Both the position numbers and the translations under genes were made by a program. Shown piece after piece: positions 9,533 to 30,042 of a stretch of DNA of 31,491 bases (its first letter is position 1; each line of letters begins with the position of its first letter). A model generated the notes under the pieces. The model did not search any database, was not told the DNA's origin, and saw only the letters and a program-made list of their open reading frames with translations. Origin of the DNA: a virus; the IMG/VR virus record IMGVR_UViG_3300037092_000250, positions 1 through 31,491 of that record. One strand, written 5' to 3'.

Positions 9533-9558
9533 ACGGGGACAGGTGGCGTACCGGTATG
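9533..9558 (+). promoter_or_regulatory. ACGGGGACAGGTG start-proximal motif, copy 1
   Basis: ACGGGGACAGGTGGCGTACC lies with its GGGGAC 21 nt upstream of the ATG at 9556. The internal AGGTG can serve as a Shine-Dalgarno sequence with a 10-nt spacer, but the conserved ACGGGGAC block extends beyond it. Six such copies occur in the window. Confidence 0.65.
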
Positions 9559-9939
9559 GAGCTATTATCAAAATTCATTTGTGGCGTTTTCGAGAGCGGA
9601 GGCGCAGAACAGGCAATCGCTTTCCCAATGGCGATGCAACATAATGCAGTGTGGGAATACATGTGCGGAGGCAATCCAGAGGCCAAGCCAGTTTCCGCAG
9701 GGTTTTTTCACCAGGAGGGAGGACAGGTTGACCTGGTAACTGGTAACTCTGAATCAATGGCGCATTACAACAATGGTGACCCATTGCCTAGCCGGCCAGC
9801 CCAGGATGGCGCGTTAATCCAGCAAATGCTCAACAGTGCAGCGCGTAATCGGTTTGACCTACGACTACAGTTATACCGCAACCTACCTAGCAGACCACCC
9901 CAAAAACGGCCAGCACCGCCTGAAATGTCAATGTCGTGA
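9556..9939 (+). CDS. Hypothetical protein (127 aa)
   Basis: A 127-residue protein, not recognised. Residues 1-95 look like folded protein (FICGVFESGGAEQAIAFPMA, then HNAVWEYMCGGNPEA). The last 30 residues are Arg/Pro-rich and of poor quality, while another register at 9836-9950 reads more naturally (YDYSYTATYLADHP). A frameshift or an alternative ending near 9840 is therefore possible. The start is fixed by the motif at 9533-9558. It is the last gene before the terminator at 9957-9987. Confidence 0.55.
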   Translation: MELLSKFICGVFESGGAEQAIAFPMAMQHNAVWEYMCGGNPEAKPVSAGFFHQEGGQVDLVTGNSESMAHYNNGDPLPSRPAQDGALIQQMLNSAARNRFDLRLQLYRNLPSRPPQKRPAPPEMSMS

Positions 9940-9956
9940 AATATTTTTTAGCTACA

Positions 9957-9987
9957 AAGCCCCTGTATTTACAGGGGCTTCTTTGTG
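9957..9987 (+). terminator. Rho-independent terminator
   Basis: AAGCCCCTGT (9957-9966) and ACAGGGGCTT (9971-9980) form a perfect 10-bp stem with loop ATTT, followed by the T-rich tail CTTTGTGTT. It ends the ardC-side unit just before the promoter at 10005. Confidence 0.8.
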
Positions 9988-10004
9988 TTATAGACGATTG
10001 TTAG

Positions 10005-10031
10005 TTGTAATTTTTCACGGATGCATAGAAT
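10005..10031 (+). promoter_or_regulatory. Rightward promoter, duplicate of the leftward early promoter
   Basis: TTGTAA (10005-10010) and TAGAAT (10026-10031) are spaced by 15 nt. The gene at 10037 starts 5 nt after TAGAAT, so its mRNA is probably leaderless. The block is almost identical to the minus-strand block at 7171-7198, including the shared CGGATGCATAGAATG, and it follows directly on a terminator. Confidence 0.7.
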
Positions 10032-10036
10032 GAAAT

Positions 10037-10521: not shown

Positions 10522-10522
10522 T

Positions 10523-11549: not shown

Positions 11550-11650
11550 TAACAATCACAACTGGACAAGGCTCTACATGGGATGCCGAAGTTAACAAGT
11601 ATCTAGCTGAATTTCCTTGGCACCAAATCTCAATGTTCATCCTTACATAG
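11546..11650 (+). CDS. Possible small protein (34 aa)
   Basis: A 34-codon frame coupled by ATGA to the preceding gene. The peptide begins MITITTGQGSTWDAE and ends WHQISMFILT. Nothing is recognised. It is the third coupled junction in a row, which favours translation; it is the last frame before the non-coding region at 11651-11999. Confidence 0.4.
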   Translation: MITITTGQGSTWDAEVNKYLAEFPWHQISMFILT

Positions 11651-11999
11651 CATCTGGTTATAGCTCAGAGCCTATCTAATCGCTAGGATGCCCTAGGACG
11701 CATCAGGCTTAGGCAGGGTGTCAGCACACCACCACACACGCAATCGTTCAACAGCGCCCAGCCAGGCTTCCGCACGCAGGCAACAGGCACCCCGCCACCC
11801 CCATAAGGAATCTATTAAGGTGGTGATTTAGCAGGATACCCACCACATGAGCATTCGGGTTTTCTCGGAGACTTTTTGAAACTGAGTCCTGTCCCATTTA
11901 GCTATTTAGTTATATTTAGCCAGATATGGACGCTTCTATAGTGATTACTGGTTGATTTGGGCTTTTCTCAGGCGCTGACGGGGACAGGTGCGGTAAGGT
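11651..11999. other. Non-coding gap before the terminase genes; candidate cos/late control region
   Basis: No convincing gene is present in these 349 nt. The contents are a pyrimidine-rich CA/CC tract (11720-11815), a weak stem GGTGGT...ACCACC-type (11819-11848), a 13-nt match to the early operator (11902-11914), a TATAGT box (11937-11942) without a good -35, and the ACGGGGAC motif at the right end. In lambda-like phages, cos lies immediately upstream of the small terminase gene, so this is where a packaging site would be expected. No cos sequence is identifiable by eye. Confidence 0.4.
11902..11914. repeat. 13-nt copy of the early operator sequence
   Basis: CTATTTAGTTATA here repeats 7270-7282, the right two thirds of the palindrome over the rightward early promoter. 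The left arm is not conserved here. It may be a weaker site for the same regulator upstream of the late genes. Confidence 0.4.
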
Positions 12000-12515: not shown

Positions 12516-14439
12516 CCCGATTGAGCAATGGGCTAGGGAGTTCCTGAAGCCTGAAGATGACTTGCCTGTCCATCAGTGGGCAGCCAAGAACTTCATCATG
12601 GACGCATCCGGTCCCAAGGGCTTGGACTTCTACGACCCGCTGTTTGCCCCTTGGATGAATGAAATCCTGGACGGTTCAGCTGACCCTTTCATTAAGCGCA
12701 TAACGGCAATGTGCTCAGCTCAAGGTGGAAAGACGGCAGCCGCCATCATAATGCTTGGACGGGCAATCGCTGAAGATCCCGGTCCAGTGCTTTGGTTAAG
12801 TTCCAAGGCAGACAGCCTGAAGCAGGACGTAAAGAGCCGTATCCGTCCATCATTTGAACGCAGTCCAGTTATTGCGCGACAACTCGGTGAAGGCCGTGGC
12901 GATAACAACGTCATGGAGATGTACCTGAAGAGCGGGGTGCTCATCAAGTATGGCTCAGGCCGTTCCCCGGGTGACTTAACTGGCAAGCCCATCCGCAAGC
13001 TGTTTGTTGATGAATTGCGCGAGTGGCCACCAGGGCACTTCGGTCAGGCATTGAAGCGGTTGCGCCGTTGGAAGGGATTGAGCCAGGCGTTTGCATTCAG
13101 TACTGCCGGCGTGGAGCGGGATGACATCCACACGTCATTCCTAGATGGTGACCAGCGCTACTGGTACTGCAAATGCCCACATTGCCAGCACGAACAGACG
13201 CTGGTATGGCAGGGTGAAACGGCAGACGGCAGGTATTACGGAGTCTGCGGTATCAAGGATGACCCCACGGCGTTTGACTCCACCCAGGAGGATTTCGAGT
13301 CTCAATGGGATTGGGACAAGGTAAAGAAGACACTCCGCTACGTTTGCAAGAATTGCTTCGGCACCATGTTTGTTGATGACCCAGCCAGCAAGGCAGCAGT
13401 TACGCTGACTGGCCGCTGGATTGCCCACAAACCGCAGGTTAAAGACCACCGCAGCTACACATGGAATGCCCTCATAGATCCATACGGGGATAGCTTAGTG
13501 GACTTAGCCAAGGAATACATGATGGCCAAGTACATGGAGGATTTGGGAATTATGAGCTACCTGCACGACTTTTGGAAGCAGAGCATGGCTATACCAGTTG
13601 GAGACCGAACCGAGAAACAGAAGCTAGACAACATTGAAATCTACGACCCGAAGGAGCCAGTAGCTACTGGTGAGGTGCTATTGATGACCGTGGACTGCCA
13701 AACGCTGGGCAAGTTCTACGCTTTAATTCTGAAGTGGCAGCCTACTGGTACAGCCAAGTTTGTGGCTTGCAAGTGCTGCCAAGGCTGGGATGAAGTCAAG
13801 GCGTTCCAGTTGGAGCACGCAGTCCGCACTAGATGCGTATTCATTGACTGCGGGCATTGGCCTTACGAAGTCTATGCCGCTTGCGTTCGTTACCAAGAGG
13901 TGAAGCTGGTACCAGTTCCAGGACAGCAGCCTAAGAAGGTGATTTTACAATGGCGGGCAATCAAGGGGGACGGCAACCGAACCAGCTTCATTTGGATGAT
14001 TGAAGATAGTAAGGGCAACATGGTCAAGGTACAGAAGCCAGTTAGCCGTTCAGAAAAGGGCGACCCGTCAATGGGCAAGAAAGGCCAAGGCAGGTCTGGT
14101 TACGCCGAGATGTTCTACAGCGCCACCAACGAGGTAAAAAACATCCTACAGATGATGATTCTACGGAAGACGTTTACTATTCCGCCAGGCGTTGACCCTG
14201 ACTTCCATAGGCAGATGAATAGCGAGCGGAAGGTAAAGAAGTGCTTCAAGACGGTATGGGAAAAGATTCAGGGACGGGATAACCACTACTGGGATTGTGC
14301 CTCCATGCAGGTTGCAGCTGCCATTCGTGCAAATCTATTGAAGTACAGGGCGAAGCCGGAGAAGTTCGAGACTATATCAAGTCCACCACAACCGCCGCCT
14401 TTAGAGCCTGAGAATGCGAGCTTTGAAGATCATCAATAG
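12481..14439 (+). CDS. Terminase large subunit, GpA family
   Basis: A 652-residue packaging motor of the lambda GpA family. It has a Walker A-like SAQGGKT (about residues 79-85), Walker B KLFVDELRE (about 174-182) and the SGRSPGDLTGKPIRK segment typical of GpA. Cysteine pairs CPHC and CKNC follow, then the nuclease domain with acidic positions in VDCQ and IDCGH. I chose the ATG at 12481 because AAAGGAG ends 3 nt upstream; an in-frame ATG at 12463 is the alternative. It translocates DNA into the prohead with ATP and cuts at cos. Its last 68 nt overlap an antisense gene. Confidence 0.95.
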   Translation: MSPQIAPVSKLNPIEQWAREFLKPEDDLPVHQWAAKNFIMDASGPKGLDFYDPLFAPWMNEILDGSADPFIKRITAMCSAQGGKTAAAIIMLGRAIAEDPGPVLWLSSKADSLKQDVKSRIRPSFERSPVIARQLGEGRGDNNVMEMYLKSGVLIKYGSGRSPGDLTGKPIRKLFVDELREWPPGHFGQALKRLRRWKGLSQAFAFSTAGVERDDIHTSFLDGDQRYWYCKCPHCQHEQTLVWQGETADGRYYGVCGIKDDPTAFDSTQEDFESQWDWDKVKKTLRYVCKNCFGTMFVDDPASKAAVTLTGRWIAHKPQVKDHRSYTWNALIDPYGDSLVDLAKEYMMAKYMEDLGIMSYLHDFWKQSMAIPVGDRTEKQKLDNIEIYDPKEPVATGEVLLMTVDCQTLGKFYALILKWQPTGTAKFVACKCCQGWDEVKAFQLEHAVRTRCVFIDCGHWPYEVYAACVRYQEVKLVPVPGQQPKKVILQWRAIKGDGNRTSFIWMIEDSKGNMVKVQKPVSRSEKGDPSMGKKGQGRSGYAEMFYSATNEVKNILQMMILRKTFTIPPGVDPDFHRQMNSERKVKKCFKTVWEKIQGRDNHYWDCASMQVAAAIRANLLKYRAKPEKFETISSPPQPPPLEPENASFEDHQ

Positions 14440-14605
14440 GCCGTATGCCGTAAATCTTGCACCCCTCGACAATATCAGCACCGGACATCTCAGGGCAGCC
14501 CTTTAGGAACTTCTCCCTAGTGACCACATAACCGCACTTGATGTGCATTCGGGTGTGCCAGCGGGAGTTCACCTGATGCACGCAGTCTTGTAAGTCGTAA
14601 GTCAT
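14372..14605 (-). CDS. Reverse-strand Cys/His-rich small protein (77 aa) inside the late region
   Basis: A 77-residue protein encoded against the direction of the late genes. It contains DCVHQ, HTRMH, KCGY, KGCPEMSG and EGCKIYG, enough Cys/His for one zinc site. I chose the ATG at 14605 (not the one at 14617) because a minus-strand ACGGGGACTGGTG motif lies exactly 20 nt upstream, the same spacing as for the plus-strand copies. It overlaps the terminase 3' end by 68 nt antisense. No family is recognised; it may be a morphogenesis regulator or a morphon-type accessory gene. Confidence 0.55.
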   Translation of the reverse strand: MTYDLQDCVHQVNSRWHTRMHIKCGYVVTREKFLKGCPEMSGADIVEGCKIYGIRPIDDLQSSHSQALKAAVVVDLI

Positions 14606-14658
14606 ACCTACCCGCACCAGTCCCCGTGCATGACGGGGACAGGTGCCGTACTGGTATG
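14603..14658. promoter_or_regulatory. Head-to-head pair of ACGGGGAC motifs (copies 3 and 4) serving divergent genes
   Basis: GTCCCCGT (14620-14627) and ACGGGGAC (14633-14640) form a perfect 8-bp palindrome with loop GCATG. The plus copy continues as ACAGGTGCCGTAC to the ATG at 14656, and the minus copy continues as ACTGGTGCGGG to the ATG at 14605. GGGGAC-to-ATG distances are 21 and 20 nt. Confidence 0.7.
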
Positions 14659-15078
14659 AGTCCTATAACAAACCTAGCCGACGGCTTTTCGGCTATCGAA
14701 GTAAAAGCAAAAACAGCAGCAATGAAGGCTGCATTCACCGACCACTACCCTAAGCAAAGACGGGCAGCTCCCAAACTCACCCCGCTTCAAGAATCATTCA
14801 AACGGATGGAGGCAGACACTGCGCTCGCATATCACAAACTTAAAGGACTACAGCGCAAGGCCATTAAGGAACACTTGATGCACGGGTTGCCCCTCGAAGA
14901 GCTGCCGGCTCCTTTCACGGTATTACACGCGGCTTCCATAGTTCGCTATGCGATGACCGACAAGGAACGGTTGCAGGCCAGCGAAGCCAGTCACCGCGAA
15001 CAGGCAGCACGCAAGAAGATGGTTGATGATTTGGACTCAGGACGAATGACAGTTCGGGTGGAAGAGGAGGCTGTATGA
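14656..15078 (+). CDS. Hypothetical protein (140 aa), helical and basic
   Basis: A 140-residue protein, not recognised, largely predicted helical (IEVKAKTAAMKAAF; LQESFKRMEADTALAYHKLK) with a charged C-terminus RVEEEAV. The ATG at 14656 is preferred over an in-frame ATG at 14626 because of the motif 21 nt upstream. It is coupled by ATGA to the next gene. It starts the rightward part of the insert between the terminase and portal genes. Confidence 0.65.
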   Translation: MSPITNLADGFSAIEVKAKTAAMKAAFTDHYPKQRRAAPKLTPLQESFKRMEADTALAYHKLKGLQRKAIKEHLMHGLPLEELPAPFTVLHAASIVRYAMTDKERLQASEASHREQAARKKMVDDLDSGRMTVRVEEEAV

Positions 15079-15392
15079 CCCGCACCGTATATTCTCCACA
15101 GGCCAAGCGCTATAAGCGGATAACCAAAGACATCTGCTACTTCATCACCCCAGACGGCACTCACTATAGCTGCGGTTGGAATGGTCAGATCCACGGAGCC
15201 AAGATGATTGCTCCCAGCTTGACTAAGCAGGACGTGGACAATCTGGACAAGCACGACCTAGGCAACTGTAAGGATTACCTACACCAGGTACTTGGCAGGC
15301 GCTTTGGGGTACCCAAAGAGAAGCTTAAACGCGCACCGTGGGAAGTCATAGCCCGTTACGACAACATGCAGGTGGTCCGCATCTATGTGTGA
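15075..15392 (+). CDS. Hypothetical protein (105 aa)
   Basis: A 105-residue basic protein, not recognised, with aromatic and Cys residues (ICYFITPDGTHYSCGW) and a C-terminal segment of beta character (PWEVIARYDNMQVVRIYV). The ATGA overlap with the preceding gene implies coupled translation. It is followed by a hairpin in the gap before the next gene. Its role is unknown; its position between terminase and portal is not one lambda uses for such a protein. Confidence 0.6.
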   Translation: MTRTVYSPQAKRYKRITKDICYFITPDGTHYSCGWNGQIHGAKMIAPSLTKQDVDNLDKHDLGNCKDYLHQVLGRRFGVPKEKLKRAPWEVIARYDNMQVVRIYV

Positions 15393-15413
15393 TTGGCTCA
15401 CCAAATTCAAACT

Positions 15414-15439
15414 AGGCAGGTGCTTATTGCACCTTGCCT
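15414..15439 (+). repeat. Intergenic hairpin
   Basis: AGGCAGGTGC (15414-15423) and GCACCTTGCCT (15429-15439) form a 10-bp stem with one bulged T and loop TTATT. No T-tract follows, so it is not a classical terminator. It may tune expression or mRNA stability of the gene starting at 15465. Confidence 0.55.
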
Positions 15440-15464
15440 GCATTGCACTAGGAGGAAAAATCAA

Positions 15465-15695
15465 ATGGCACATCAAAGGAATACTACACGAACTGGGACT
15501 GTAAAGGGGGATTGGAACCGAGCTACACCGGCCTATTACAAGGACGAGAACTGGAGCTGGCGAACCAAGAAGCCTGAAGAGAAGCCATGCGGCTGTCCGG
15601 CAGGCAAGGAATGTGAACCAGGTTGCTTCATGCTAGACCGAGATGAAAACCGGTCATGTGCAGATGACCTATACCGAAGAAAACCCAATGATTGA
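15465..15695 (+). CDS. Small Cys-rich protein (76 aa)
   Basis: A 76-residue protein with five cysteines in a compact segment (CGCPAGKECEPGCF, then SCADDLYRR), probably a metal-binding knuckle. The N-terminal half is Trp/Lys-rich. AGGAGG lies 9 nt upstream of the ATG, a clear SD that fixes the start; a TTG-initiated extension to 15393 is rejected because it runs through the hairpin. It overlaps the sigma-like gene by 8 nt. Confidence 0.65.
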   Translation: MAHQRNTTRTGTVKGDWNRATPAYYKDENWSWRTKKPEEKPCGCPAGKECEPGCFMLDRDENRSCADDLYRRKPND

Positions 15696-16248
15696 CGAAA
15701 AGGAACATGACTTCTCAGACGAGCAGCTGAGGCAGCTGATGCCGAGCATGGGCAACGTGACATGGGCTGAGGCGTTCCTTGTTCGCAAATTGGTCTATTA
15801 CTGGGTTGGACGGTACCAGCGAGTAGGAAAAAAAGCAGGGCTTGACCGTGAGGATTTGGCGCAGCTGGCATGGATACAGGCACTTGAGGCTTGCAAGCAG
15901 GAGAGAACCAGCACGCTGTCAACCGTGGTATCCCGCTGGGTTAAGTTTCACCTGAGCACGGCTACTCGCTCAGATTTGAAGGAAGACGAACTGGAGGATG
16001 ACCACGACCAGAAGCCAGAGTCTGATGAATTGCCAGCCTTTTACTTTGACGAAAAGGAAGCCTTGGTTGAGGCGATGAAGAAGCTGACCAAGGACGAGCG
16101 ATACATTATACGAAGCTACTACTGGCACGGCCTCCAGTTCCACGATATACGCCGTAGAATGAAGTGGTCTGAGCCAATGTTATACCGGACTTTGGCGCAG
16201 GCTAAGAAGAAACTCCGACAGTTAATTTCGCCTAGTGCTACTAACTAG
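15688..16248 (+). CDS. Sigma-70/ECF-like sigma factor (second copy)
   Basis: A 186-residue protein with the two-domain arrangement of small sigma factors. A region 2-like helical block (about 15-90) contains LDREDLAQLAWIQALEA and a segment comparable to the -10 recognition helix. A C-terminal region 4 (about 130-180) has LTKDERYIIRSYYWHGLQFHD followed by a recognition helix and AQAKKKLRQLI. An acidic linker joins them. The start at Met 15688 overlaps the previous gene by 8 nt; Met at 15664 is possible. It differs in sequence from the early sigma gene. Inference: late-gene transcription or anti-host function. Confidence 0.75.
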   Translation: MIDEKEHDFSDEQLRQLMPSMGNVTWAEAFLVRKLVYYWVGRYQRVGKKAGLDREDLAQLAWIQALEACKQERTSTLSTVVSRWVKFHLSTATRSDLKEDELEDDHDQKPESDELPAFYFDEKEALVEAMKKLTKDERYIIRSYYWHGLQFHDIRRRMKWSEPMLYRTLAQAKKKLRQLISPSATN

Positions 16249-16250
16249 GC

Positions 16251-16580
16251 ATGGCAGAAGGCATCTTACTTGGTTTAGGACTCAGCGAAACAGACTTGCT
16301 TGATGCAAGGGATTCCGCTTTGCAGGTATTCATTGAAGGACGTGCAGTTACTGGTATGGCACTACACGCCGGTTCTGGCGTAGCACGGACAAAACAATGG
16401 CAAATGCTTCAGAACGCCCAAGACCCTAAAATGGTTTTACGCGAAATTCGCTATGCCCTCTACAAGCTAGGGATACCAGCTGACACCACTAAGCCGTTTG
16501 GCCTTAAAACCAATAACAAGTACTTGGACTGCGGACCCACCTTTTCCAAATACCGGTACGCCCAAATTCGATTAAATTAA
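16251..16580 (+). CDS. Possible head completion protein, gpW-like by position (109 aa)
   Basis: A 109-residue protein between the terminase/insert and the portal gene, the slot of lambda gpW. The N-terminal part (LSETDLLDARDSALQVFIEG) is helical and is followed by a short beta-like stretch, loosely like gpW, which plugs the connector after packaging. The C-terminal half (EIRYALYKLGIPADTTK) has no counterpart in the 68-residue lambda protein. The start is 2 nt after the sigma-like stop. The call is mainly positional. Confidence 0.4.
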   Translation: MAEGILLGLGLSETDLLDARDSALQVFIEGRAVTGMALHAGSGVARTKQWQMLQNAQDPKMVLREIRYALYKLGIPADTTKPFGLKTNNKYLDCGPTFSKYRYAQIRLN

Positions 16581-16581
16581 C

Positions 16582-18189
16582 ATGAAGAAGAAACCCTCCA
16601 AGGCAATTTCCCGCCCAAAATCTCCGGTCAAGGCGAAAGGTACACTCCCAGCTAAAACCACAGGCAACGACAAACTGCCAAAGAAACAGGCATTCGTCCG
16701 CGGTGGATACGGCCTTTACAGAGGCGCTGACTATCAGTCCAGGCAACGTGCCCCACTGATTCCGTTACCCCGTGACGCTAAATACGATTGCAGCAGCTTC
16801 AGCCAGCTCCGGTTAATGGCACTTGGCCGCTTCATGGATTCCAACGTCAGCTGGATACGCGGACTGGTTAATGAGATTTGCAACAACGTGGTAGGCGCAG
16901 GCTGGACTCCGGTGTTTGAGGGCAAGAATCAAAACTGGGGACACCAGGCCGAAACATGGTTAGTCAACTGGCACAAAGTTTGTGACGTTCGCGGCCAGCA
17001 GATGAAAACGGTCATGTGGCAGGCACTACGCGGTACCATCGTTGACGGCGACCAGCTTTCCATTCTGACCGAGACCAACACGCACTATCCGCAAGTTCAG
17101 CAGATTCCAGCACACCGCATTTCGACCCGCAGCTACCAGTCAACAGAGCAGTTTGGCGGAGACGCCAATGCTCAGATGCAGAACGGCGTTAAGACTGACA
17201 AGCTAGGCCGTCCGGTTGGATACCTAGTGACTGGCGATGATCCGGAGGGAAACGAGGATGAATTTGTTGCAGCTCAGAACGCCCACCTTATTGCTGGACA
17301 GGAATGGGTTGCCCAGGGACGCGGTGTTACCGCAATGGCATCGTTCCTTAACGAAGCCGTGGACATTGACGACCTCAGCGAATTGCTGAAGTTTGCCGCC
17401 AAAATCTTGGCCAGCATCGCATTGATTGAAAACGTCGAAGGGGATGACGAGGGGGATGACGAAGAATTCCTTAACGAGACCAGCTTGCAGAACGGCAAGG
17501 AAATGGCCATTGAGGAAATCTACGGTGGCATGATTCGTAAGTTCAGGGCAGGCAGCGGTGGCAAGCTGGAGGCTTTTGAGCACCAGCAACCGAGTACCAA
17601 CATCCAAGAATGGCGCAGGGAACTCATGCGCGGTTGCTATGCGGCTATGGGCTGGCCTATTGAACTGGCTCTGGACTTCAAGGGCTTAACTGGTTCCAAC
17701 ACCCGTGCAATCCTAGAGAAAGCACAGAAGACCGTGGAGTACTGGCAGACCATTTTGGGCTACTGGTATTACCGCGTCACCTGCTACGCCATCGCAAAGG
17801 CCATGAAGCTTGGCTTACTGCCCTGGAATCCAGAGTGGTACAAGTGGGATTTCCAGCTGCCTAAGAAGATGACCGTTGATGCAGGCCGCGACTCCCAGCA
17901 AGACAGAGCCAACGTGGCAGCTGGTCTAACTACCCTTTCCGCAGTGTTTGGCAAAAACGGCCTACGCTGGAAACCAGAGACCGACCAATGGTTGGACGAG
18001 GTGGAGTACCTAGTGGAGGGAATCAATAAACGCCCAGCTCTTAAGGAGTTGACCGTTCAATACATCCTGAGCCAGCGCTTTGTGAATACCTTCAGCGGTA
18101 AACCAGCAGCACCTGAGAAGCCAGCGGAAGATCCGGAGACCGACCCTGAGACACCAGCTGAGGACAAAACAGATAAAACCGAAGAATAA
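16582..18189 (+). CDS. Portal protein, lambda gpB family
   Basis: A 535-residue portal protein of the lambda family. Typical features are GGYGLYRGADYQSRQR near the N-terminus, the DSNVSWIRGLVNEICNNVVG helix, VDGDQLSILTE, the RGCYAAMGWPIELALDF segment, and an acidic/proline-rich C-terminal tail (PETDPETPAEDKTDKTEE). The dodecameric portal forms the DNA channel at one capsid vertex and docks terminase. It begins 1 nt after the preceding gene and ends 2 nt before the capsid protease gene. Confidence 0.95.
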   Translation: MKKKPSKAISRPKSPVKAKGTLPAKTTGNDKLPKKQAFVRGGYGLYRGADYQSRQRAPLIPLPRDAKYDCSSFSQLRLMALGRFMDSNVSWIRGLVNEICNNVVGAGWTPVFEGKNQNWGHQAETWLVNWHKVCDVRGQQMKTVMWQALRGTIVDGDQLSILTETNTHYPQVQQIPAHRISTRSYQSTEQFGGDANAQMQNGVKTDKLGRPVGYLVTGDDPEGNEDEFVAAQNAHLIAGQEWVAQGRGVTAMASFLNEAVDIDDLSELLKFAAKILASIALIENVEGDDEGDDEEFLNETSLQNGKEMAIEEIYGGMIRKFRAGSGGKLEAFEHQQPSTNIQEWRRELMRGCYAAMGWPIELALDFKGLTGSNTRAILEKAQKTVEYWQTILGYWYYRVTCYAIAKAMKLGLLPWNPEWYKWDFQLPKKMTVDAGRDSQQDRANVAAGLTTLSAVFGKNGLRWKPETDQWLDEVEYLVEGINKRPALKELTVQYILSQRFVNTFSGKPAAPEKPAEDPETDPETPAEDKTDKTEE

Positions 18190-18191
18190 CT

Positions 18192-21292: not shown

Positions 21293-21773
21293 GCCAATTA
21301 GACAATTACTGATGGAGGCGATACTCGCACGGTTTCAGGGTATCACGGTAGCTAACGGCTACATGACAGACATAGGAAACAGTACCTACCTATGCCGAGC
21401 GGTTGACCCAGATGTCACCGAGCTGCCCTTCTTGAACATTTTGGATTTGGACAGGCAGACGAAGGAAGTCGGAATGGGGCAACTGGCCACACACGAGCAC
21501 ACGCTGACAATTGCAGCTCAGTTGATGGTAGCAGGCAGCCAGCCGGCAGTGACGATTAGGCAAGTTGAGGCAGACCTCAGCAAGGCGATTGGGGAAGATA
21601 GGAAGTGGATAACCACCGACTTCCCGCTAGGAATAGGATTTTACACGGTGTTGACGAAGAGCGGGTTTGGCCAGGATGCCAACGGAGTTAGAATTTTAGG
21701 CGGTTACCATTTTGAATTTACGGTCAAGTACCGGACAAAGGCATTTGACGAAACAAAACAACCAGGACAATAA
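21285..21773 (+). CDS. Tail terminator/completion protein (gpU/gpZ position)
   Basis: A 162-residue protein between the head-tail joiner and the tail tube gene, the position of lambda gpZ and gpU. It shows a helix (IRQLLMEAILARF), a beta segment (PFLNILDLDRQ), HEHTLTIAAQLMVAG, VRQVEADLSKAIGE-like alternation and a C-terminal beta strand (YHFEFTVKYRT). This alpha/beta layout is common to tail terminator proteins that cap the tube. Assignment by context and pattern. Confidence 0.65.
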   Translation: MSKPIRQLLMEAILARFQGITVANGYMTDIGNSTYLCRAVDPDVTELPFLNILDLDRQTKEVGMGQLATHEHTLTIAAQLMVAGSQPAVTIRQVEADLSKAIGEDRKWITTDFPLGIGFYTVLTKSGFGQDANGVRILGGYHFEFTVKYRTKAFDETKQPGQ

Positions 21774-21777
21774 AAAT

Positions 21778-22737: not shown

Positions 22738-22770
22738 TTTTGGGAAACAGGGAGGTTTGGTATGGTGGGA

Positions 22771-22804
22771 ACGGCCAGCTAGCTAACACTGGCTGGCCGT
22801 TTTT
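22771..22804 (+). terminator. Rho-independent terminator after the tail tube gene
   Basis: ACGGCCAGC (22771-22779) pairs perfectly with GCTGGCCGT (22792-22800), followed by a run of T (22800-22804). Only 30 nt separate its end from the next start codon, and that gap holds motif copy 5. Confidence 0.85.
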
Positions 22805-22809
22805 AACTA

Positions 22810-22837
22810 ACGGGGACAGACGGCCTACGGTTATATG
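22810..22837 (+). promoter_or_regulatory. ACGGGGACAG start-proximal motif, copy 5
   Basis: ACGGGGACAGACGGCCTACG lies with GGGGAC 23 nt upstream of the ATG at 22835, directly after a terminator. Unlike copies 1-3 it lacks AGGTG, so ACGGGGAC is conserved without a good SD. This argues for a role beyond ribosome binding. Confidence 0.65.
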
Positions 22838-23350
22838 AGCAAACTAACCTCACAACTAAAATCACGGAACCGCAAACAAGTCACGCTGGACAACGGCGCA
22901 ATCATCGTAGTCCGACGGGTTGACTCAATGGATTACCTTGAGCTAGGCCAGATCCCACAGGTACTGTTTAGCAACTTTTCAAAGCTTAAGAACTTGCCCG
23001 TTGAGGAACAGGCTAAAGCCATCCTCGACAACAAAGACAGCACCGCTGAAGTGCATCGCGTGCTGTTTGGCAACTGCGTATTGGGCGCCTTGGTTGATGG
23101 CAAGCTGGAGCCAATTAAGTTCGTTCAGAAGCCAGCCATCGAATGCGAGGAAGACGAAGTTTCAATTTCAGACGATTTGACATCCAACGAACGCAATCGG
23201 CTTGTAGCTGCAATCAACGGGGTGGAAGGGAGCGTGGCTGATAAATCAGCCACCTTTCGTGGAGAACCAGGAAACCCTACTGACGCTGGACAATCTGGGG
23301 AGACGGTACAGCCGGCTACCGTCGGAGATACTGCACCTCAGCCCGCTTGA
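22835..23350 (+). CDS. Tail assembly chaperone (lambda gpG-like)
   Basis: A 171-residue protein immediately before the tape measure region. It is mostly helical (SMDYLELGQIPQVLFSNFSK) with a low-complexity C-terminus (PATVGDTAPQPA). In siphoviruses, gpG and the frameshift product gpGT chaperone the tape measure protein and recruit tube subunits. A second open frame overlaps its 3' end in the +1 register, as expected for such a pair. The first 155 codons would be shared with the fusion. Confidence 0.75.
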   Translation: MSKLTSQLKSRNRKQVTLDNGAIIVVRRVDSMDYLELGQIPQVLFSNFSKLKNLPVEEQAKAILDNKDSTAEVHRVLFGNCVLGALVDGKLEPIKFVQKPAIECEEDEVSISDDLTSNERNRLVAAINGVEGSVADKSATFRGEPGNPTDAGQSGETVQPATVGDTAPQPA

Positions 23351-23519
23351 TTATTCCATCAACGTCATAGTGGCAATCGCAGGGGTGGAACAGGAGAAGC
23401 GGGAATACGAGAAGGCAAAGAAGGAGTACGGGCACCAGGAACCCTCGATAGAAGAGGCTAACCCGAACAGTAGGCTACAAAAGGCGATAGCTAAGAAAGC
23501 AGCAAGGAAGAAGAAATAA
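23259..23519 (+). CDS. Frameshift extension of the tail chaperone (gpT-like part)
   Basis: The frame is open from 23208 to 23519 and is in the +1 register relative to the chaperone gene. It encodes LPSEILHLSPLDYSINVIVA and a strongly charged helical tail (EQEKREYEKAKKEYG, then IAKKAARKKK). A GTG at 23259 is the only start-like codon, without an SD, so expression as a fusion is more likely. A shift at GGGG (23297-23300) would give a 227-residue product. The end is 1 nt before the tape measure start. Confidence 0.65.
   Translation: MENQETLLTLDNLGRRYSRLPSEILHLSPLDYSINVIVAIAGVEQEKREYEKAKKEYGHQEPSIEEANPNSRLQKAIAKKAARKKK
23295..23323 (+). promoter_or_regulatory. Candidate +1 programmed frameshift site
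   Basis: CTGGGGA (23295-23301) lets tRNA-Gly on GGG (23297-23299) re-pair one base forward. A perfect 7-bp hairpin follows directly: GACGGTA (23302-23308) with TACCGTC (23317-23323). A second possible slip site is CCCG at 23342-23345. Confidence 0.5.
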
Positions 23520-23520
23520 C

Positions 23521-26127
23521 ATGGCAGAAGACAATCAAAGCATAGTTGAGATTATCATTAAGGCGGTTGACGAAACCAAAGACGGCCTGACTGGTAGTAT
23601 AAACTCATTGTCTGATTTGAAGGACAAGCTGGGTGAATTGTCTGTTGCTGCCGAAGCATCGTTTGCAGTTATCGCCGCTGGCTTGGTTGCAATGGGTGAG
23701 CACTTCATCTCTGGCGCAGCTCAAATGGAAGTAATGAGCCAGAAGGTAGGCGTATCCGTTACTGACCTTTCTACCTTCAAGGAAGCAATGGAAGCAGCCG
23801 GCACATCCCCTGACCACTTGCAGCAGTCACTGGTGAAGCTCAATGTAGCCATAGAAAACGCAGCCAAGGGCAACAAGACAGCGCAGATGGCGTTTCAGGA
23901 ATTGGGCGTGGAGTTCCAAAATGCAGACGGTACCGCCCGCAGCACTTCAGACGTATTCCGTGACATTGCGGAACGGTTTGCAGACATGCAGGACGGCGCA
24001 GCCAAGACAGCCATCGCAACCCAGTTATTCGGCAAAGCGGGTGCAGACCTAATTCCAGTACTTGACCAAGGAGCAGCTGGCCTCGACGAGGCAGCCGCTA
24101 AATCAAAGAAGCAAGGCGATGCCAATGACGTATCTGCCAAACAGGCTTTACAATTTCAACTACAGCTGAAGGAGCTAAACAAAGAGTTTATCGGCGTGGT
24201 TAACACTGTCACTGCTGAGGTGCTGCCTACCCTCATTCAATTCGTTCAGGAGCTAAAAGGCACCGGCAACCAGACCTCAGCGTTTGCCACAATCATGGAG
24301 GACGTAGGCTGGACGGTTAAGCACCTGTTGACTGGCTTCGTTGCCATCAAGGACTTCATCGTCATTTTGGCAACGGTTTTGGCTGGTGCAATTGCCAGCT
24401 TAGTAAATGACTGCGAAAACATTCTGACTGTAGCTAACAAGCTTATCCACCTGGACTTCAAGGGAGCAGAGGCAGCCTGGACTTCATGGGGGGTGCAATC
24501 TAAAGCAATCATGAAGGCCGTCCATGACGACCTCGACAAGCAAGTTGACGACATGATGAAGCAGATGGACCGCATGGGCAACACCCAGCCGGCTGCCCAG
24601 GTTGCTCCACCGACCACGGGAAATGCGTCCGGTGTCAGTTTGCAGCTGGTAGATCCAACCGAGCTAGCCAAGGAGCAGAGCGAGTATGATGCGGCGCTGA
24701 AGAGCATGGAGAAGGATCTCCAGACCAGCCAAGAGAGTCAGTATCAGGTTATTGAGGATTCCTACAATAACAGGATGAAGGTCATCGAGGCGTATTACGA
24801 CGGCCAGCGCAAGATGGTTCAAAACTCGATGCAGGACGAGATTACCAAGGACATCAAGCTCAAAACCCTGGACATCCAGCAGGACGCAGACGAGGAAGAA
24901 GCGGCCAACGCAAAGGGAGCTAAGATTTCAGCACTGGCAGACAAATACAATGCCGAGCTGGTAGCCAAGTCTGGCAAGGTGCTAGGCTCAAAGATTGACC
25001 AGCTAAATCAGGAGTGGACTGCTTTCGAGAACACCCTGAAGAAAGAGTTGAACGGCTACGCTGGCTTGCAGGACATGTTGAATGCAGCCGACAAGGCACG
25101 CACCGCAGCAGTGGCAGCAGAGCAGAAGAAACAGCAGGATACGTTTCAGTCCATGATGGACAAGATGAAGAATGAAGCGGTTCAGGCTGGCCCATACAAG
25201 GAGCTACTGGCTGAAGCCCAGCGCTACGATGCAGAGGTTAAGAAGATTCAGGATGATATTGCCAAGGGTACCGTCACAGGTGTTCAAGGCGAGCAGTTGC
25301 TGACCCAGGCCGAGCAGACCCATTACGCGATGGAGCAGAAGATTGAGGTTAGCCTGAAGAATCAGCTAACGCTTGAGCAGTATGACACTAGCACCGCTCA
25401 GGGAGCAATGCAGCAGAAGTTAGCGATGTTCCAGATTGAGAAGCAAGCAGCGCTAGACTTATACAACTCGCAGGTTCAGGCAATTGACAAGCTAGCCATC
25501 AATGCCCAGCAAAAAGACCAGCTGATGGCTCAGGCTTACCAGGGCTATGTCAATAAATGCAAGGAGCTAGACCGGCAAGGTTATGAAGCCCGTATCCAGC
25601 TGTTCCAGAAGTATGCGCAAGACACCTCTTCAATGCTGGGTGATATGGCTACAGCAGCGAAAGCCTACGGTAAATCAGGATTTGAAGTTTACAAGGCCAC
25701 CGCATCCGCACAGGCGATGGTGAACGCACTTTCAGCAGCAACAGGGGCATATAGTGCTATGGCCGCGATACCAGTTGTTGGACCTGCTTTAGGCATTGCC
25801 GCCGCCGCAGCCGCCTTAGCTGCCGGTATGGCAAACGTGGCTTCCATCGAATCTCAGCAGCCATCAGGTGCAGCTCACGGTGGTTTGGATTACGTGCCAT
25901 CAGAAAGTACTTGGTTGCTTCAGAAAGGCGAAGCAGTCCTCAGCCCAAATCAGAACGCAGACCTACGGGCATTCCTAGCTTCCCAGAACACGGGGACTGG
26001 AGGCGGAGGTATGCAACATGTCGTGGTGAACCTGGACAGCAAACCAATTATTGACACGGTTGCGCAGGCCAGCCGACTTGGTTCGCTGGTGATTGATTCT
26101 CGAAATGTAAGGAGAGGTGGCTACTAA
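23521..26127 (+). CDS. Tail tape measure protein
   Basis: An 868-residue protein that sets tail length and is expelled into the host during DNA injection. It has an amphipathic N-terminal block and a TMP core with VGVSVTDLSTFKEAMEAAG-type repeats (about 75-150). A membrane-like stretch lies at about 278-296 (FIVILATVLAGAIASLVND), followed by long Gln/Lys/Glu-rich coiled coils (380-720) and a Gly/Ala hydrophobic C-terminal region (VVGPALGIAAAAAALAAG). It follows the chaperone pair and overlaps the next gene at TAATG. An in-frame ATG at 26011 follows a motif-like sequence (see rejected items). Confidence 0.92.
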   Translation: MAEDNQSIVEIIIKAVDETKDGLTGSINSLSDLKDKLGELSVAAEASFAVIAAGLVAMGEHFISGAAQMEVMSQKVGVSVTDLSTFKEAMEAAGTSPDHLQQSLVKLNVAIENAAKGNKTAQMAFQELGVEFQNADGTARSTSDVFRDIAERFADMQDGAAKTAIATQLFGKAGADLIPVLDQGAAGLDEAAAKSKKQGDANDVSAKQALQFQLQLKELNKEFIGVVNTVTAEVLPTLIQFVQELKGTGNQTSAFATIMEDVGWTVKHLLTGFVAIKDFIVILATVLAGAIASLVNDCENILTVANKLIHLDFKGAEAAWTSWGVQSKAIMKAVHDDLDKQVDDMMKQMDRMGNTQPAAQVAPPTTGNASGVSLQLVDPTELAKEQSEYDAALKSMEKDLQTSQESQYQVIEDSYNNRMKVIEAYYDGQRKMVQNSMQDEITKDIKLKTLDIQQDADEEEAANAKGAKISALADKYNAELVAKSGKVLGSKIDQLNQEWTAFENTLKKELNGYAGLQDMLNAADKARTAAVAAEQKKQQDTFQSMMDKMKNEAVQAGPYKELLAEAQRYDAEVKKIQDDIAKGTVTGVQGEQLLTQAEQTHYAMEQKIEVSLKNQLTLEQYDTSTAQGAMQQKLAMFQIEKQAALDLYNSQVQAIDKLAINAQQKDQLMAQAYQGYVNKCKELDRQGYEARIQLFQKYAQDTSSMLGDMATAAKAYGKSGFEVYKATASAQAMVNALSAATGAYSAMAAIPVVGPALGIAAAAAALAAGMANVASIESQQPSGAAHGGLDYVPSESTWLLQKGEAVLSPNQNADLRAFLASQNTGTGGGGMQHVVVNLDSKPIIDTVAQASRLGSLVIDSRNVRRGGY

Positions 26128-26906
26128 TGAAAATGTATTGGAACAATTTAGTGAGGCTTGGAACCACGGCGCTGACAGCCAGTTCCGCGCAGTCCACATT
26201 GCCCGTTACAAATCTGCAAAATGCCCACCGTGACGCAGTGTGGCAGTCACTAGGTACATCCTCGACTGAATGGATTGTCAGCGACTTTGGAGCCGCATTG
26301 AAAGCCAGCAGCGTAGTTCTGTTCGCCCACAACCTACTGGAGGCGGAGTCAGTCACTATTCAGTTGAGCAACACGGCAGATTTTAGCGTGATTGATTACA
26401 CGGCCAGAATGCAATGGAGCCATAAGGCGCTGGTAGCAATTTTCCCAGAGCGTTCATTCCGTTATTGCAGGGTGAACATCACCAAGTCTGTATCCACCAA
26501 GCTGGCTCAGGTTGGTGTTCTTTTCATTGGCGAATGCGTAGTACCAATCGAAGCACCAGACTTTGCCGGTGTCAAGTGGCAGGTTAATGACCTCAGCAGC
26601 AATCAAAAGACGCTTAACGGCAAGCTATTTTCAGATGTACGGCCGTCTTACCGCAGCTGGACGTTGCCCTTCACCGATGTCAGGGCAGCTCAGGCGGATA
26701 AGCTTTGTGAGATGTACGTGGAGAATGGAACCCACGAGCCTTTCTTCCTTCAGATACAGGACGCAGTTGATGGAGTGCAGAGCAACGCAGACATCAGGGA
26801 CGAAGTCCTTTACGTGATTTTCCAGAAGTTGACGGAGCAGTCCATCACCGGCAGCGATGACACGCTACTGTTTCAATACAACATGCAGCTAGAAGAATAC
26901 CTATGA
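26127..26906 (+). CDS. Tail tip/minor tail protein (259 aa)
   Basis: A 259-residue beta-rich protein in the distal-tail position after the tape measure. The N-terminal half (WNNLVRLGTTALTASS, TEWIVSDFGAALKASSVVLF) resembles a discoidin-like sandwich seen in some minor tail proteins. The C-terminal half (VKWQVNDLSSNQKTLNGKLF; RSWTLPFTDV) fits a distal tail or hub-binding domain. The start overlaps the TMP stop (TAATG) and the stop overlaps the next start by 4 nt. No exact lambda equivalent is claimed. Confidence 0.65.
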   Translation: MKMYWNNLVRLGTTALTASSAQSTLPVTNLQNAHRDAVWQSLGTSSTEWIVSDFGAALKASSVVLFAHNLLEAESVTIQLSNTADFSVIDYTARMQWSHKALVAIFPERSFRYCRVNITKSVSTKLAQVGVLFIGECVVPIEAPDFAGVKWQVNDLSSNQKTLNGKLFSDVRPSYRSWTLPFTDVRAAQADKLCEMYVENGTHEPFFLQIQDAVDGVQSNADIRDEVLYVIFQKLTEQSITGSDDTLLFQYNMQLEEYL

Positions 26907-29794
26907 CCCTACAAGACATGCTAGCATTGCCAAACGTCCCCAGTGTGATACTGGTGGAGGTTTCTGTTGGCGTTGCCTTGGAAGCGTGGATTACCAACAC
27001 CGACGGCAATACGTTCACCTGCCAGGTCCCGCAGCGCGTAAATGTCGAAAGTTTGCAATACAATGGCACGGTGCTCACGTTGGTTACAGGCACACCCACC
27101 GCAGCGGGCCAATGGAGCCAGTCAGGGCAGGCAGTGACTGTGTTTCCACCTACAGGCACCACCAACATCTACAATGACGTGGTTATCGGCTTTGCTGGAT
27201 TCTACTTCTCAGATACCAGCAAGGTGCTCAATGGCAAGTGGTACGAGGACAGGGTGAAGAGCATCCCCAAATTGCAGATGCAGATTGAGGCACGATTCTC
27301 AGGCGCTATGCAGTTTGGACAAGCTACCGTGCAGCTGTTGAACGGCGACGGATACTTCGATGGCTTAGATGATTTGCTATGGGACAACGGCCTGTTGACA
27401 GTCAAGTACGGGGTTGACCTTCCAGGCACTCCGATGGACTACAGTGGCTATGCCACCGTGGCTGCCTTTGCTCTGGCTAATTTCGAGCGGGACAATGACA
27501 TGGCCACCATCCAAGTCAAGGAGCGCAAAACCCGCCTGGCTCAGAAGCTGCCAGCCACGTTCTACGATAGCGACACCTATCCAAACATGGATGCCACCTT
27601 AGCAGGCACAGTTATCCCGATGATTTACGGGCACGTGTTCAGCGCTGAGGTTACGGTGCTAGACCCAGGCACAGGACGCTGCAAAGCTTGCAGCAATGCC
27701 GTAGTGGACTTCCCACTGGCGAAGGTGAAGCGGTCCATCCAGACAATATCTCCGTTGAATCCTCAGTTCATTGCAGACCCAGTCCACACTGGCCTGTATC
27801 GTGCAGCGGCTTCCAATGTCACCGACTTGATTGTTTACAGCACTGACATGCCTCAGTTCCCGACGACCACGCCTACAGTTCCAGCCGCTGGACAGACCAA
27901 CGAAGCATTTACTGACATGCTATACGTTGCACCAAGCTACATTAATCATTGGGGTGTTCCAGTGGTTCCTCCTATTCCAGCTGGGTGGACGGTTTCTCCT
28001 GGATACGACTTCTCATTCAAACTCGATACTCTAACCGGAATTTGGTCAGCTCCAGTTCTTCCAGGAAGCCCTTCTTCTCTTGGAGGAAGCTCAGCTGCTG
28101 TGCTAGATGCAGATGGTATATTTGTAGTCACCCCCGCGCAAGCGTCGTCTTACATTCAAGTGAGGAACCTAAGAATCACTATTTACGTAAATCCGTGGGG
28201 TGCAGGTGGAGCTGGTGGCTTCATCAATGGAAAACCGAATGTTCCAAAACCAAACATTGTTTACAACATGCAGCGAGTTGACGCTAGTAACCTTTCAAAC
28301 ATAACACCAGGTACTTGGGGTCAGGTTGGCGGCACCATTTATGCAAAGCCACCGGCTGGAGTGGACTTCATGAATTCTGTTCCAAACAGCATGAATATAC
28401 CATTTAACAGCGATTATGCTATTACTTCATCAGGTAACAAATGGGGGACAATGGCTCAATCCCATTACCAGCCGTTACCAAAAGTTGACACCATTGAACT
28501 ATGCCAGACCACTGGATGTTGCTGGGCACTCATTAACGAGGTGCTTTACGTAAACCCATCAAATCGAATAACAGCTATACCTGATGATTACGTGGTTGGG
28601 CAAGGTGGTGCAACAGTGGGCTACGAGGTTGCAAATGGCGGATTGGAGGGAACTACAATTCCAGTAACCACGCTAGCAGCGGGCATTGCTAGCGTGTCAG
28701 CTGACAAAATCACTTCAGTTGACAAGTGGATGCCAATTGGCATTCAGGAGAAATTCCTAGACGTTGGCGAGTTCATTCCCGATATGACCGAGTGGGATGG
28801 CGCTGAGGAGTTGGCGGTTGACGTAATCGGAAAACCTGGACTTTACGGCGAGGTTATGGAAAACCCCGCTGAAGTAGTTCGAGACTTGCTGGAGCAAATT
28901 GGCGAGACCTCTTTCGATGATGCTGCATTTGCAGCTACATGGGCTTGGTTTTGCATGTCGCTTAACTCCGACGGCACGCATAACCATCAATTCAAGATTG
29001 CGTTGAATCTGGACACGCAGACCGACGTGATGCAGCTCGTTAGTGACATCAACATGGTTGCAGCCACCTACCTGCTAGACAAGTTTGGCAAGTGGAGCTT
29101 TCAGGCAGTCAGGCCGCAGCCTTCAACAGGCTTGCAACGATTCACTGATGATGACTTCTATGGTACGCCTCAGAAGACAGTCAACAATGACAAACTGGTT
29201 ACGCAGGTTGACGCCTACTACCAATACAGAGCAGCGGAGGACACGGCACTGGTAATGAGCATTGACGATGTACGGGCACAGATGAAGCACGGTAGCCCAT
29301 GGCAGTTTGTTTTGCAAATGGGGCAGACACCAAGCTCAGTGCAGCTGATTGACCGCTACACGAGCCTTGAGACAATCCAGGATTTGCCACTTTACGACCC
29401 GCAGGACGTTACCGCATTTATCTACCGCGAGCTGGCAATGGAAGGTGTTCCCTTAGTCGAAGAAATCGTAAACCTACACAAAGCGGCCATGCTGGTATTA
29501 CCTGGCGGCCACGTTGTAGTTGATAGGGAACGCGATGGCTTGCGGGTAATGGAGGTAATTGGGGCAGAGCTAGACCTAAATAAGAAGCAGGTGAAGCTCA
29601 CACTAGGCAACAACCGAGGCTGGGCAGACAGCTGCGGATATTGGGTAGCTGACAGCGCACCTAATTGGGATGCCAGCCTCACCGACAAACAAAAGAAAGA
29701 GATGATTTGCAGCTCAGGATTCTGGACGAACGATAACAGCATGGCTAACGAGGCAGATCCGAAGAGCTACAAAATAAGCCGCTGGTGGCCATAA
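26903..29794 (+). CDS. Large tail-tip/baseplate hub protein (963 aa)
   Basis: A 963-residue protein in the place of the tail tip or Tal-like hub. The N-terminal 290 residues include a beta-rich domain with FGQATVQLLNGDGYFDGLDD and KYGVDLPG. The C-terminal 370 residues contain MQLVSDINMVAATYLLDKFG and the SWQFVLQMG-type strands of hub proteins. Residues about 343-600 (27930-28700) differ in base composition and codon choice from both flanks, more AT-rich with T-ending codons, suggesting a swapped domain, perhaps in host contact. A Lys-rich GKW/DNN end closes it. Confidence 0.7.
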   Translation: MTLQDMLALPNVPSVILVEVSVGVALEAWITNTDGNTFTCQVPQRVNVESLQYNGTVLTLVTGTPTAAGQWSQSGQAVTVFPPTGTTNIYNDVVIGFAGFYFSDTSKVLNGKWYEDRVKSIPKLQMQIEARFSGAMQFGQATVQLLNGDGYFDGLDDLLWDNGLLTVKYGVDLPGTPMDYSGYATVAAFALANFERDNDMATIQVKERKTRLAQKLPATFYDSDTYPNMDATLAGTVIPMIYGHVFSAEVTVLDPGTGRCKACSNAVVDFPLAKVKRSIQTISPLNPQFIADPVHTGLYRAAASNVTDLIVYSTDMPQFPTTTPTVPAAGQTNEAFTDMLYVAPSYINHWGVPVVPPIPAGWTVSPGYDFSFKLDTLTGIWSAPVLPGSPSSLGGSSAAVLDADGIFVVTPAQASSYIQVRNLRITIYVNPWGAGGAGGFINGKPNVPKPNIVYNMQRVDASNLSNITPGTWGQVGGTIYAKPPAGVDFMNSVPNSMNIPFNSDYAITSSGNKWGTMAQSHYQPLPKVDTIELCQTTGCCWALINEVLYVNPSNRITAIPDDYVVGQGGATVGYEVANGGLEGTTIPVTTLAAGIASVSADKITSVDKWMPIGIQEKFLDVGEFIPDMTEWDGAEELAVDVIGKPGLYGEVMENPAEVVRDLLEQIGETSFDDAAFAATWAWFCMSLNSDGTHNHQFKIALNLDTQTDVMQLVSDINMVAATYLLDKFGKWSFQAVRPQPSTGLQRFTDDDFYGTPQKTVNNDKLVTQVDAYYQYRAAEDTALVMSIDDVRAQMKHGSPWQFVLQMGQTPSSVQLIDRYTSLETIQDLPLYDPQDVTAFIYRELAMEGVPLVEEIVNLHKAAMLVLPGGHVVVDRERDGLRVMEVIGAELDLNKKQVKLTLGNNRGWADSCGYWVADSAPNWDASLTDKQKKEMICSSGFWTNDNSMANEADPKSYKISRWWP

Positions 29795-29799
29795 ACGAT

Positions 29800-30018
29800 A
29801 TGATACCTACACCATCCATAGGAGACGCAACGAAGTTGAGTTGGGCACAATCAGTTCAAGACGCACTGACAGCAGCCGGCATCACCGTCTATGGTCCAGC
29901 GCTGGGCGACCCGCTGAGGCTGGGCTGGGCTATTGAGGTATCGAAGAATTTAACCGCTACAGCACCAACGCTTGGCGATGCAACAAAACAGTCCTGGGCA
30001 GCTCAGGTGGCTAGCTAA
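29800..30018 (+). CDS. Small protein with three tandem repeats (72 aa)
   Basis: A 72-residue protein made of three copies of an about 22-residue unit: IGDATKLSWAQSVQDALTA, LGDPLRLGWAIEVSKNLTA and LGDATKQSWAAQVAS. Each unit looks like a helix with a buried Trp. The start may be this ATG or a GTG at 29785 that overlaps the previous gene. It sits between the tail hub and the tail fibre. A structural or fibre-assembly role is plausible but unsupported beyond location. Confidence 0.55.
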   Translation: MIPTPSIGDATKLSWAQSVQDALTAAGITVYGPALGDPLRLGWAIEVSKNLTATAPTLGDATKQSWAAQVAS

Positions 30019-30042
30019 CGGGGACAGGAGCACACAATTATG
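30018..30042 (+). promoter_or_regulatory. ACGGGGACAGGAG start-proximal motif, copy 6
   Basis: ACGGGGACAGGAGCACACAA overlaps the stop codon of the preceding gene by one base and lies with GGGGAC 20 nt before the fibre ATG at 30040. AGGAG is a good SD with a 9-nt spacer. Confidence 0.7.

Follow-up and report, generated by a model that had tools for sequence, protein, structure and literature searches.

What does a short repeat do that recurs at a nearly fixed distance in front of the start codons of one phage? The question is raised by the virus record IMGVR_UViG_3300037092_000250, a stretch of 31,491 bases (referred to at its full length as the window) that encodes a tailed phage with serine integrase, terminase, portal, protease, capsid, tail and fibre genes. 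Because an integrase is present, the phage is probably temperate. An earlier note on this sequence had described six copies of the repeat, whose invariant module is ACGGGGAC, and had offered three roles for it, i.e., a promoter element for a phage sigma factor, a translational element or a mobile repeat. Here, we find the repeat to be real, sharply bounded and fixed relative to start codons. Our leading interpretation, to which we give about an even chance, is a start-associated sequence (SAS), i.e., a leader element for the common control of translation initiation in a set of genes.

A repeat fixed in front of start codons

The window holds seven exact copies of ACGGGGAC in 31.5 kb, where 0.55 are expected; none of 100 dinucleotide shuffles gave seven. 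Six of the seven are located 22-25 nucleotides (nt) upstream of gene ATGs (counted from the A of ACGGGGAC), always oriented in gene direction. The ATGs led in this way are those at 9556, 12000, 14605 (minus strand), 14656, 22835 and 30040. That is, all six copies of the earlier note were found at their places and strands, and the distance of 20-23 nt it gave from GGGGAC to ATG was borne out. Its count of six is right for start-linked copies, while a seventh exact copy at 25990-26002 had been overlooked. We number the copies 1 to 7 along the window, such that copy 3 is the fourth of the earlier note, copy 4 its third and copy 7 its sixth. Amino acids (aa), open reading frames (ORF), base pairs (bp) and Shine-Dalgarno (SD) matches are abbreviated in the following list.

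9533..9545, plus strand: copy 1, ACGGGGACAGGTG; ATG 9556 of a 127-aa ORF without assigned function; the flanks form an 8-bp stem TACGCCAC/GTGGCGTA
11978..11990, plus strand: copy 2, ACGGGGACAGGTG; ATG 12000 of the small terminase (terS)
14615..14627, minus strand: copy 3, ACGGGGACTGGTG; ATG 14605 (minus strand) of a 77-aa ORF
14633..14645, plus strand: copy 4, ACGGGGACAGGTG; ATG 14656; head-to-head with copy 3
22810..22822, plus strand: copy 5, ACGGGGACAGACG, no SD match; ATG 22835, first gene past a terminator-like hairpin
25990..26002, plus strand: copy 6, ACGGGGACTGGAG, within the tape-measure ORF; in-frame ATG 26011, 21 nt downstream
30018..30030, plus strand: copy 7, ACGGGGACAGGAG; ATG 30040 of the tail fibre

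Five of the six start-linked copies extend to ACGGGGAC(A/T)GGnG. When aligned at the core, columns 0-7 are invariant in 7/7 copies; among the next five columns, two are invariantly G, one is G in 6/7 copies and two are variable. The stretch from core to ATG differs by at most 4 nt and ends with GGTATG in 5/7 copies. Upstream of the core, the alignment of all seven copies reveals nothing in common: the best shared 6-mer within 40 nt is found in 3/6 start-linked copies (average of 60 shuffles 3.03), and no second box is visible. Copies 3 and 4 together make up one near-perfect inverted repeat, GTCCCCGT-GCATG-ACGGGGAC.

How sharply the set is bounded becomes apparent when the window is scanned with a matrix derived from the six start-linked copies. 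Seven sites score 18.3-22.4 bits, followed by 15.6, 13.2 and 13.1 for the next three, where the best score per triplet-block shuffle averages 13.1 (n=30). A degenerate extra copy spotted by eye before the sigma factor gene at 4013 is outside the 30 best matrix sites and was rejected. The spaced pattern GGGGACNGGNG + 6-14 nt + ATG yields 6 matches vs. 0.01 expected; it misses the copy at 22810 (ACG replacing GTG) and takes in the extra copy at 25990. By chance, about 0.4% of positions lie 22-25 nt before a listed gene start, compared to 6/7 copies (P about 2.5e-14, with gene list and distance window picked after the data had been seen).

Copy 6 is not a sure member of the set and may be a coding coincidence, because the peptide it encodes (TGTGG) already dictates most of its letters; by our reckoning, the three free third-codon positions fit in about 1 in 32 cases. 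The claim that the copies open functional blocks holds for those at 9533, 11978, 14615, 14633 and 22810, i.e., copies 1-5, which sit in gaps of 50-450 nt according to our gene list (the gap 9322-9555 of copy 1 also contains two small ORFs). It fails for copy 7 at 30018, which overlaps the preceding ORF (29785-30018) by one base: the stop codon ends with what is also the first A of the copy, such that no gap is left.

Is the repeat then a ribosome-binding site and nothing else, kept unusually uniform by strong translation needs? SD-like matches of 5, 5, 5, 0, 5 and 4 nt precede the ATGs at 9556, 12000, 14656, 22835, 30040 and 14605, respectively, i.e., 4-5 nt in five of the six start-linked copies compared to a mean of 3.9 in 30 other genes, which agrees with such a reading. 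We nevertheless consider it very unlikely, since ten of these 30 genes reach SD matches of 5-7 nt while lacking the motif, and copy 5 retains ACGGGGACAG despite lacking an SD match. That conservation exceeds what ribosome binding needs had already been proposed and is confirmed: ACGGGGAC is invariant in 7/7 copies while the SD stretch varies or is lost. AGGTG and AGGAG would pair with different registers of the anti-SD sequence at the 3' end of 16S rRNA; across copies of either kind, the ACGGGGAC module keeps its distance to the ATG. Some Verrucomicrobia are reported to be SD-scarce (PMC10783764).

Each copy thus combines the invariant upstream ACGGGGAC with an SD-like stretch that reads AGGTG, AGGAG or TGGTG and is missing from copy 5. 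In a start-associated leader element, the ribosome would use the SD-like part, while ACGGGGAC in the mRNA would be read by a phage or host factor, be it protein or RNA. Such a factor would raise or block initiation at terS, the tail-assembly block, the fibre and nearby small genes. We infer both the action at RNA level and the reading by a factor. Among the three roles offered before, the translational one is best supported, given the fixed ATG distance, the SD-like match in 5/6 copies, the conservation beyond the SD and the likeness to published SAS discussed below. The lack of conserved sequence further upstream and the abutting of copy 7 on a stop codon also count in its favor.

Likeness to known start-associated sequences

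We compared the repeat with published elements. The SAS of Cluster K mycobacteriophages, GGGATAGGAGCCC, are described as 13-bp asymmetric repeats that occur 11-19 times in a genome, usually 3-7 bp ahead of the start; they include AGGAG yet are conserved beyond it, and mostly follow gaps of over 50 bp (PMC3203893). Described in 2011, they still have no known role according to a 2024 paper, in which the extended SAS (ESAS) hold putative promoters (PMC11373665).

The window repeat resembles Cluster K SAS in its asymmetric 13-bp form, its position at the ribosome-binding site, its nearly constant gene orientation, its conservation beyond the SD, its preference for genes that follow gaps of over 50 bp and its apparent restriction to a lineage (PMC3203893). 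Regarding the descriptive class of SAS-type elements, position and orientation agree for 6/7 copies, and conservation beyond the SD is found as well. In SAS register, the seven copies match the Cluster K consensus in 8-11 of 13 positions at 5-9 nt from the ATG. Within two deviations of that consensus, we only find copy 7 (two), while the others show 3-5. Furthermore, the window repeat has an extra invariant ACG upstream and 6-7 instead of 11-19 copies. It leads packaging, tail and fibre genes, whereas the Cluster K SAS are restricted to the non-structural right half, and it lacks a common upstream repeat like the ESAS, i.e., the inverted repeats before about half of the Cluster K SAS. Finally, the flanks of the window repeat show pairing around the core (see below), in contrast to 16 SAS of the Cluster K phage Adephagia with none (p-values 0.66-0.86), although 5 nt were held unpaired in that test vs. 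8 for the window repeat. The repeat is thus SAS-like by form, but its sequence places it outside the Cluster K family, and it differs in gene set, copy number and flank pairing. Adephagia also has a stretch resembling the head-to-head site, but with E = 6 this likeness is not significant and was discarded.

Similar elements are known from Microbacterium phages. The Cluster EF SAS, GGGAAAGGACCCC, is reported with ten copies, each ESAS-linked (PMC7302621). It shares position and form with the window repeat and agrees in 7-10 of 13 positions over the seven copies; a GGGAnAGG core is common to the Cluster EF SAS and copies 1, 2, 4 and 7. Phages of Clusters EC (Quhwah) and EG (Hyperion) carry 10-12 repeat copies at near-fixed distance before starts, namely 22-30 bp for Quhwah and 14-21 bp with one exception for Hyperion, whose repeat contains two short inverted motifs (PMC7302621). 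For these two, the likeness is one of description.

Among relatives, we studied 43 loci (24-34% portal identity; 510 kb in total; partial, some overlapping and 18 under 8 kb). Over 12,852 bases, contig L011 reproduces 14928-27779 exactly and so brings in no variation; other portal matches show about 22-34% identity, with Verrucomicrobia phage P8625 (25%) as the best named phage. Within the 43 loci, ACGGGGAC occurs twice (L119, L121) and ACGGGGAC(A/T)GG never. One-mismatch matches to ACGGGGACNGG in eight relative records are not above the reversed control (8 and 14), and start-linked 8-mers in relatives revealed nothing comparable. Using tblastn, the portal is found in 41 of these loci and terL in 27, while the two sigma factors of the phage and the six motif-led genes are found in none; this absence is weak evidence because the loci are partial. 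A search for relatives in IMG/VR by terminase, integrase and motif patterns gave none or chance matches. No earlier report of the repeat was seen in our searches of open-licence papers.

The earlier note had also considered a dispersed mobile repeat of the repetitive extragenic palindromic (REP) type with its REP-associated tyrosine transposase (RAYT), which would have been recruited as a leader. The pair at 14615-14645 is palindromic, as such an origin would suggest, but it is the only palindromic one, and no Y1 transposase match is present in the window (the family is matched in 5/14 control genomes). Among 387 genomes from the phylum of the Opitutae relative contig, 17 contain the spaced pattern, with 18 occurrences in total (reversed control: 8), and none is dense in it. 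In IMG/VR, an exact form is found once in each of 45 stretches, where the next ATG opens at least 60 codons in 11 and a second ACGGGGACWGG is present in one; no contig among them has two full matches. We therefore give this origin hardly any credence.

Sigma factors, promoters and operators

The following features bear on transcription.

15643..16248, plus strand: phage sigma factor, ECF-like, with regions 2 and 4 (Pfam below cut-off, NCBIfam TIGR02937 above)
3321..4013, minus strand: second phage sigma-70-family factor
22778..22804, plus strand: terminator-like hairpin with T-run, ending 5 nt before copy 5

In addition to the two sigma-70-family factors, a third protein (4826-5404, minus strand) shows a weak region-4-like match.

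The main rival, which we deem unlikely but worth serious attention, is a promoter element for one of the two sigma factors that would give short-leader transcripts of late gene blocks. The head-to-head pair is followed by one of the sigma genes after about 1 kb, copies open gene blocks, and copy 5 follows a terminator-like T-run by 5 nt, where the terminator-like match is weak evidence alone because shuffles hold such sites equally often (13 in the stretch vs. 12.6). The lone minus-strand gene 14375-14605 would have to be served by a separate promoter. Sites of the host sigma-70 type are not enriched over shuffles (3 vs. 8.1, 6 vs. 9.0), and neither the sigma factors nor the full motif is seen in the partial relative loci. 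A search for a T7-like polymerase gave no match, nor did its controls, such that this negative carries no weight.

Phage sigma promoters can indeed be short low-copy repeats: those of phiEco32 and 7-11 are well-conserved, intergenic and served by an own sigma factor, which parallels the window phage (PMC4331800). Their motifs are A+T-rich (tAATGTAtA, TGTGATGTTATA), in contrast to the G-rich, ATG-fixed motif of the window (PMC4331800).

On the other hand, the 40 nt upstream of the copies hold no common second box, and the G-rich invariant module would be unlike a melting -10 box. When taken as a -35 box, the motif would start transcripts past the ATG, i.e., beyond genuine-looking start codons, and terS and fibre show no good later start. 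Copy 7, moreover, abuts a stop codon. A phage sigma factor need not require a second promoter box. The promoter role offered in the earlier note is kept alive by the two sigma factors and the block-start positions of the copies; the absent second box and the start codons speak against it.

A related possibility, which we regard as quite unlikely, is an operator at which a DNA-binding repressor of the phage would keep late blocks silent in the prophage. Cluster A mycobacteriophages have comparable sites called stoperators (mentioned in PMC3203893 and PMC4351075), which are 13-bp asymmetric sites oriented with transcription and are not known to keep a fixed distance to start codons. The window repeat shares their length, asymmetry and orientation and is mostly intergenic; the integrase suggests a probably temperate phage, and copies 3/4 are palindromic. 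Its fixed ATG distance is what stoperators do not need, and it is missing from the divergent gap 7165-7482. Furthermore, no repressor was recognised among the scanned proteins.

Some neighboring features were noted in passing. The gene at 22835, without PHROG, Pfam or NCBIfam match, is presumably a tail assembly chaperone, as judged by position; overlapping ORFs at 22835-23519, ahead of the tape measure, are laid out like a frameshifted tail assembly chaperone pair, a name we likewise assume from position. The fibre gene contains collagen-like nine-base repeats (31241-31474). At 1912-3363 (minus strand), a MutH/Sau3AI-like endonuclease (weak, below cut-offs) may form a restriction-modification pair with the adjoining CcrM-like adenine methyltransferase (likewise below cut-off). 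A 29-nt inverted repeat (7170-7198 / 10004-10032; 93% complementary, 2.8 kb apart) flanks an anti-restriction gene region, and a strong palindrome ATATCCCCCTATAT/ATATAGGGGGATAT with T-rich tail at 8600-8641 may be a terminator or operator.

Pairing of the flanks around the core

Returning to the leader element, we regard a hairpin with ACGGGGAC in its loop and the 3' arm over the SD region as suggestive rather than proven. In copy 1, ACGGGGACAG is enclosed by a perfect 8-bp stem; copy 5 has a stem of 8 pairs whose sequence is quite different. We therefore tested the pairing of native upstream with native downstream arms, with the core held unpaired.

Shuffling the upstream arm gives a Fisher p-value of 0.004 with or without the copy at 25990, driven by copies 1 (0.023) and 5 (0.006). 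Swapping arms among the six start-linked copies results in p-values of 0.065, 0.004, 0.001, 0.078 and 0.225 at arm lengths 10, 15, 20, 25 and 30; with the copy at 25990 added, these are 0.073, 0.001, 0.0002, 0.029 and 0.126. Since copies 3 and 4 overlap, copy 3 was dropped, as was the coding copy 6, to give a five-copy set (1, 2, 4, 5, 7). Here, the native combination ranks first among 120 when arms of 18 or 20 nt are used (p-value 0.0083), with p-values of 0.017 at 15, 22 and 25, and 0.1 at 12. When copy 4 is also left out, the native combination is the best of 24 at lengths 15-25 (p-value 0.042, the minimum possible; 0.083 at 12).

The five copies also pair better than with random arms from the window (Fisher p-value 0.0013) and fold better than 41 distinct chance occurrences of the pattern (p-values 0.009-0.020). 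As a calibration, 31 other gene starts show similar energies for native (-1.98) and swapped (-1.93) arms; sets of five other genes reach an equal rank in 0.3% of 2000 cases and an equal energy gain in 0 of 5000. A further candidate (L095) with motif, ATG and a 9-bp hairpin seen by eye was taken as chance because its motif sits within a frame open on both sides that reads GDGDRC; it shows that chance can yield such hairpins, and it was excluded from the 41-occurrence comparison for being too close to the locus end.

If ACGGGGAC served as the loop in an RNA operator hairpin, a single RNA-binding regulator encoded by the phage would co-switch the translation of terS, the tail block, the fibre and several small genes, which we consider rather unlikely. 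A separate rival is a target of CsrA/RsmA, i.e., GGA in a hairpin loop over the SD. A loop-presented GGA near the SD resembles CsrA sites, and the consensus RUACARGGAUGU from systematic evolution of ligands by exponential enrichment has the same AC-GGA spacing (PMC7652899). Yet the A of ANGGA is replaced by G in all copies, the loops would comprise 8-15 nt instead of being hexaloops, and the window has no CsrA match (3/14 controls are matched), such that we think this reading highly improbable.

An antisense RNA was likewise evaluated as reader of the core. The 450-nt non-coding gap before terS (11550-11999), a possible packaging site or source of a small RNA, holds the motif-complementary CCTGTCCC at 11888 as a potential pairing partner of the core. 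We rejected the candidate, since a single extra site of this kind is about what chance provides and the folding of 11651-11975 does not surpass that of shuffled sequence. Scans with Rfam (gathering thresholds) and for tRNAs found none in the window.

Several observations weigh against a leader element acting in translation, and in particular against its hairpin. Five of six copies are at block starts, copy 5 is just past a terminator-like hairpin and copies 3/4 are head-to-head, as would be expected for promoters or operators. A trans-acting factor was not identified, and the full motif is present in none of the relatives found (43 partial loci). The arm test was devised after the folds had been seen; taken one by one, copies other than 1 and 5 do not outperform shuffled arms at 0.05, the count of core-spanning pairs reaches p-values of only 0.10-0.12, and the six-copy swap stays at 0.065, 0.078 and 0.225 for lengths 10, 25 and 30. 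Control leaders in the energy-gain comparison fold more weakly overall, and one chance occurrence (L052) out-folds every real copy. When folded freely, the loop hairpin only forms in copies 1, 5 and, within short context, 6, and only copies 1 (0.79) and 5 (0.52) leave more than half of the core unpaired. In copies 3 and 4, the core is buried, i.e., almost fully paired within a strong GTCCCC/GGGGAC stem, while copies 2 and 7 take other, weak folds.

For phage biology, a set with a GGGAnAGG-like core in a phage whose best portal match among named phages is a Verrucomicrobia phage suggests that SAS are a device found beyond actinobacteriophages or have more than one origin. The window repeat offers a testable difference from known SAS, as its flanks may form a hairpin around the core. 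If the RNA-operator reading is true, the DNA phage would possess a translational regulon of several genes whose loop is conserved while the stems are free in sequence, unlike SAS.

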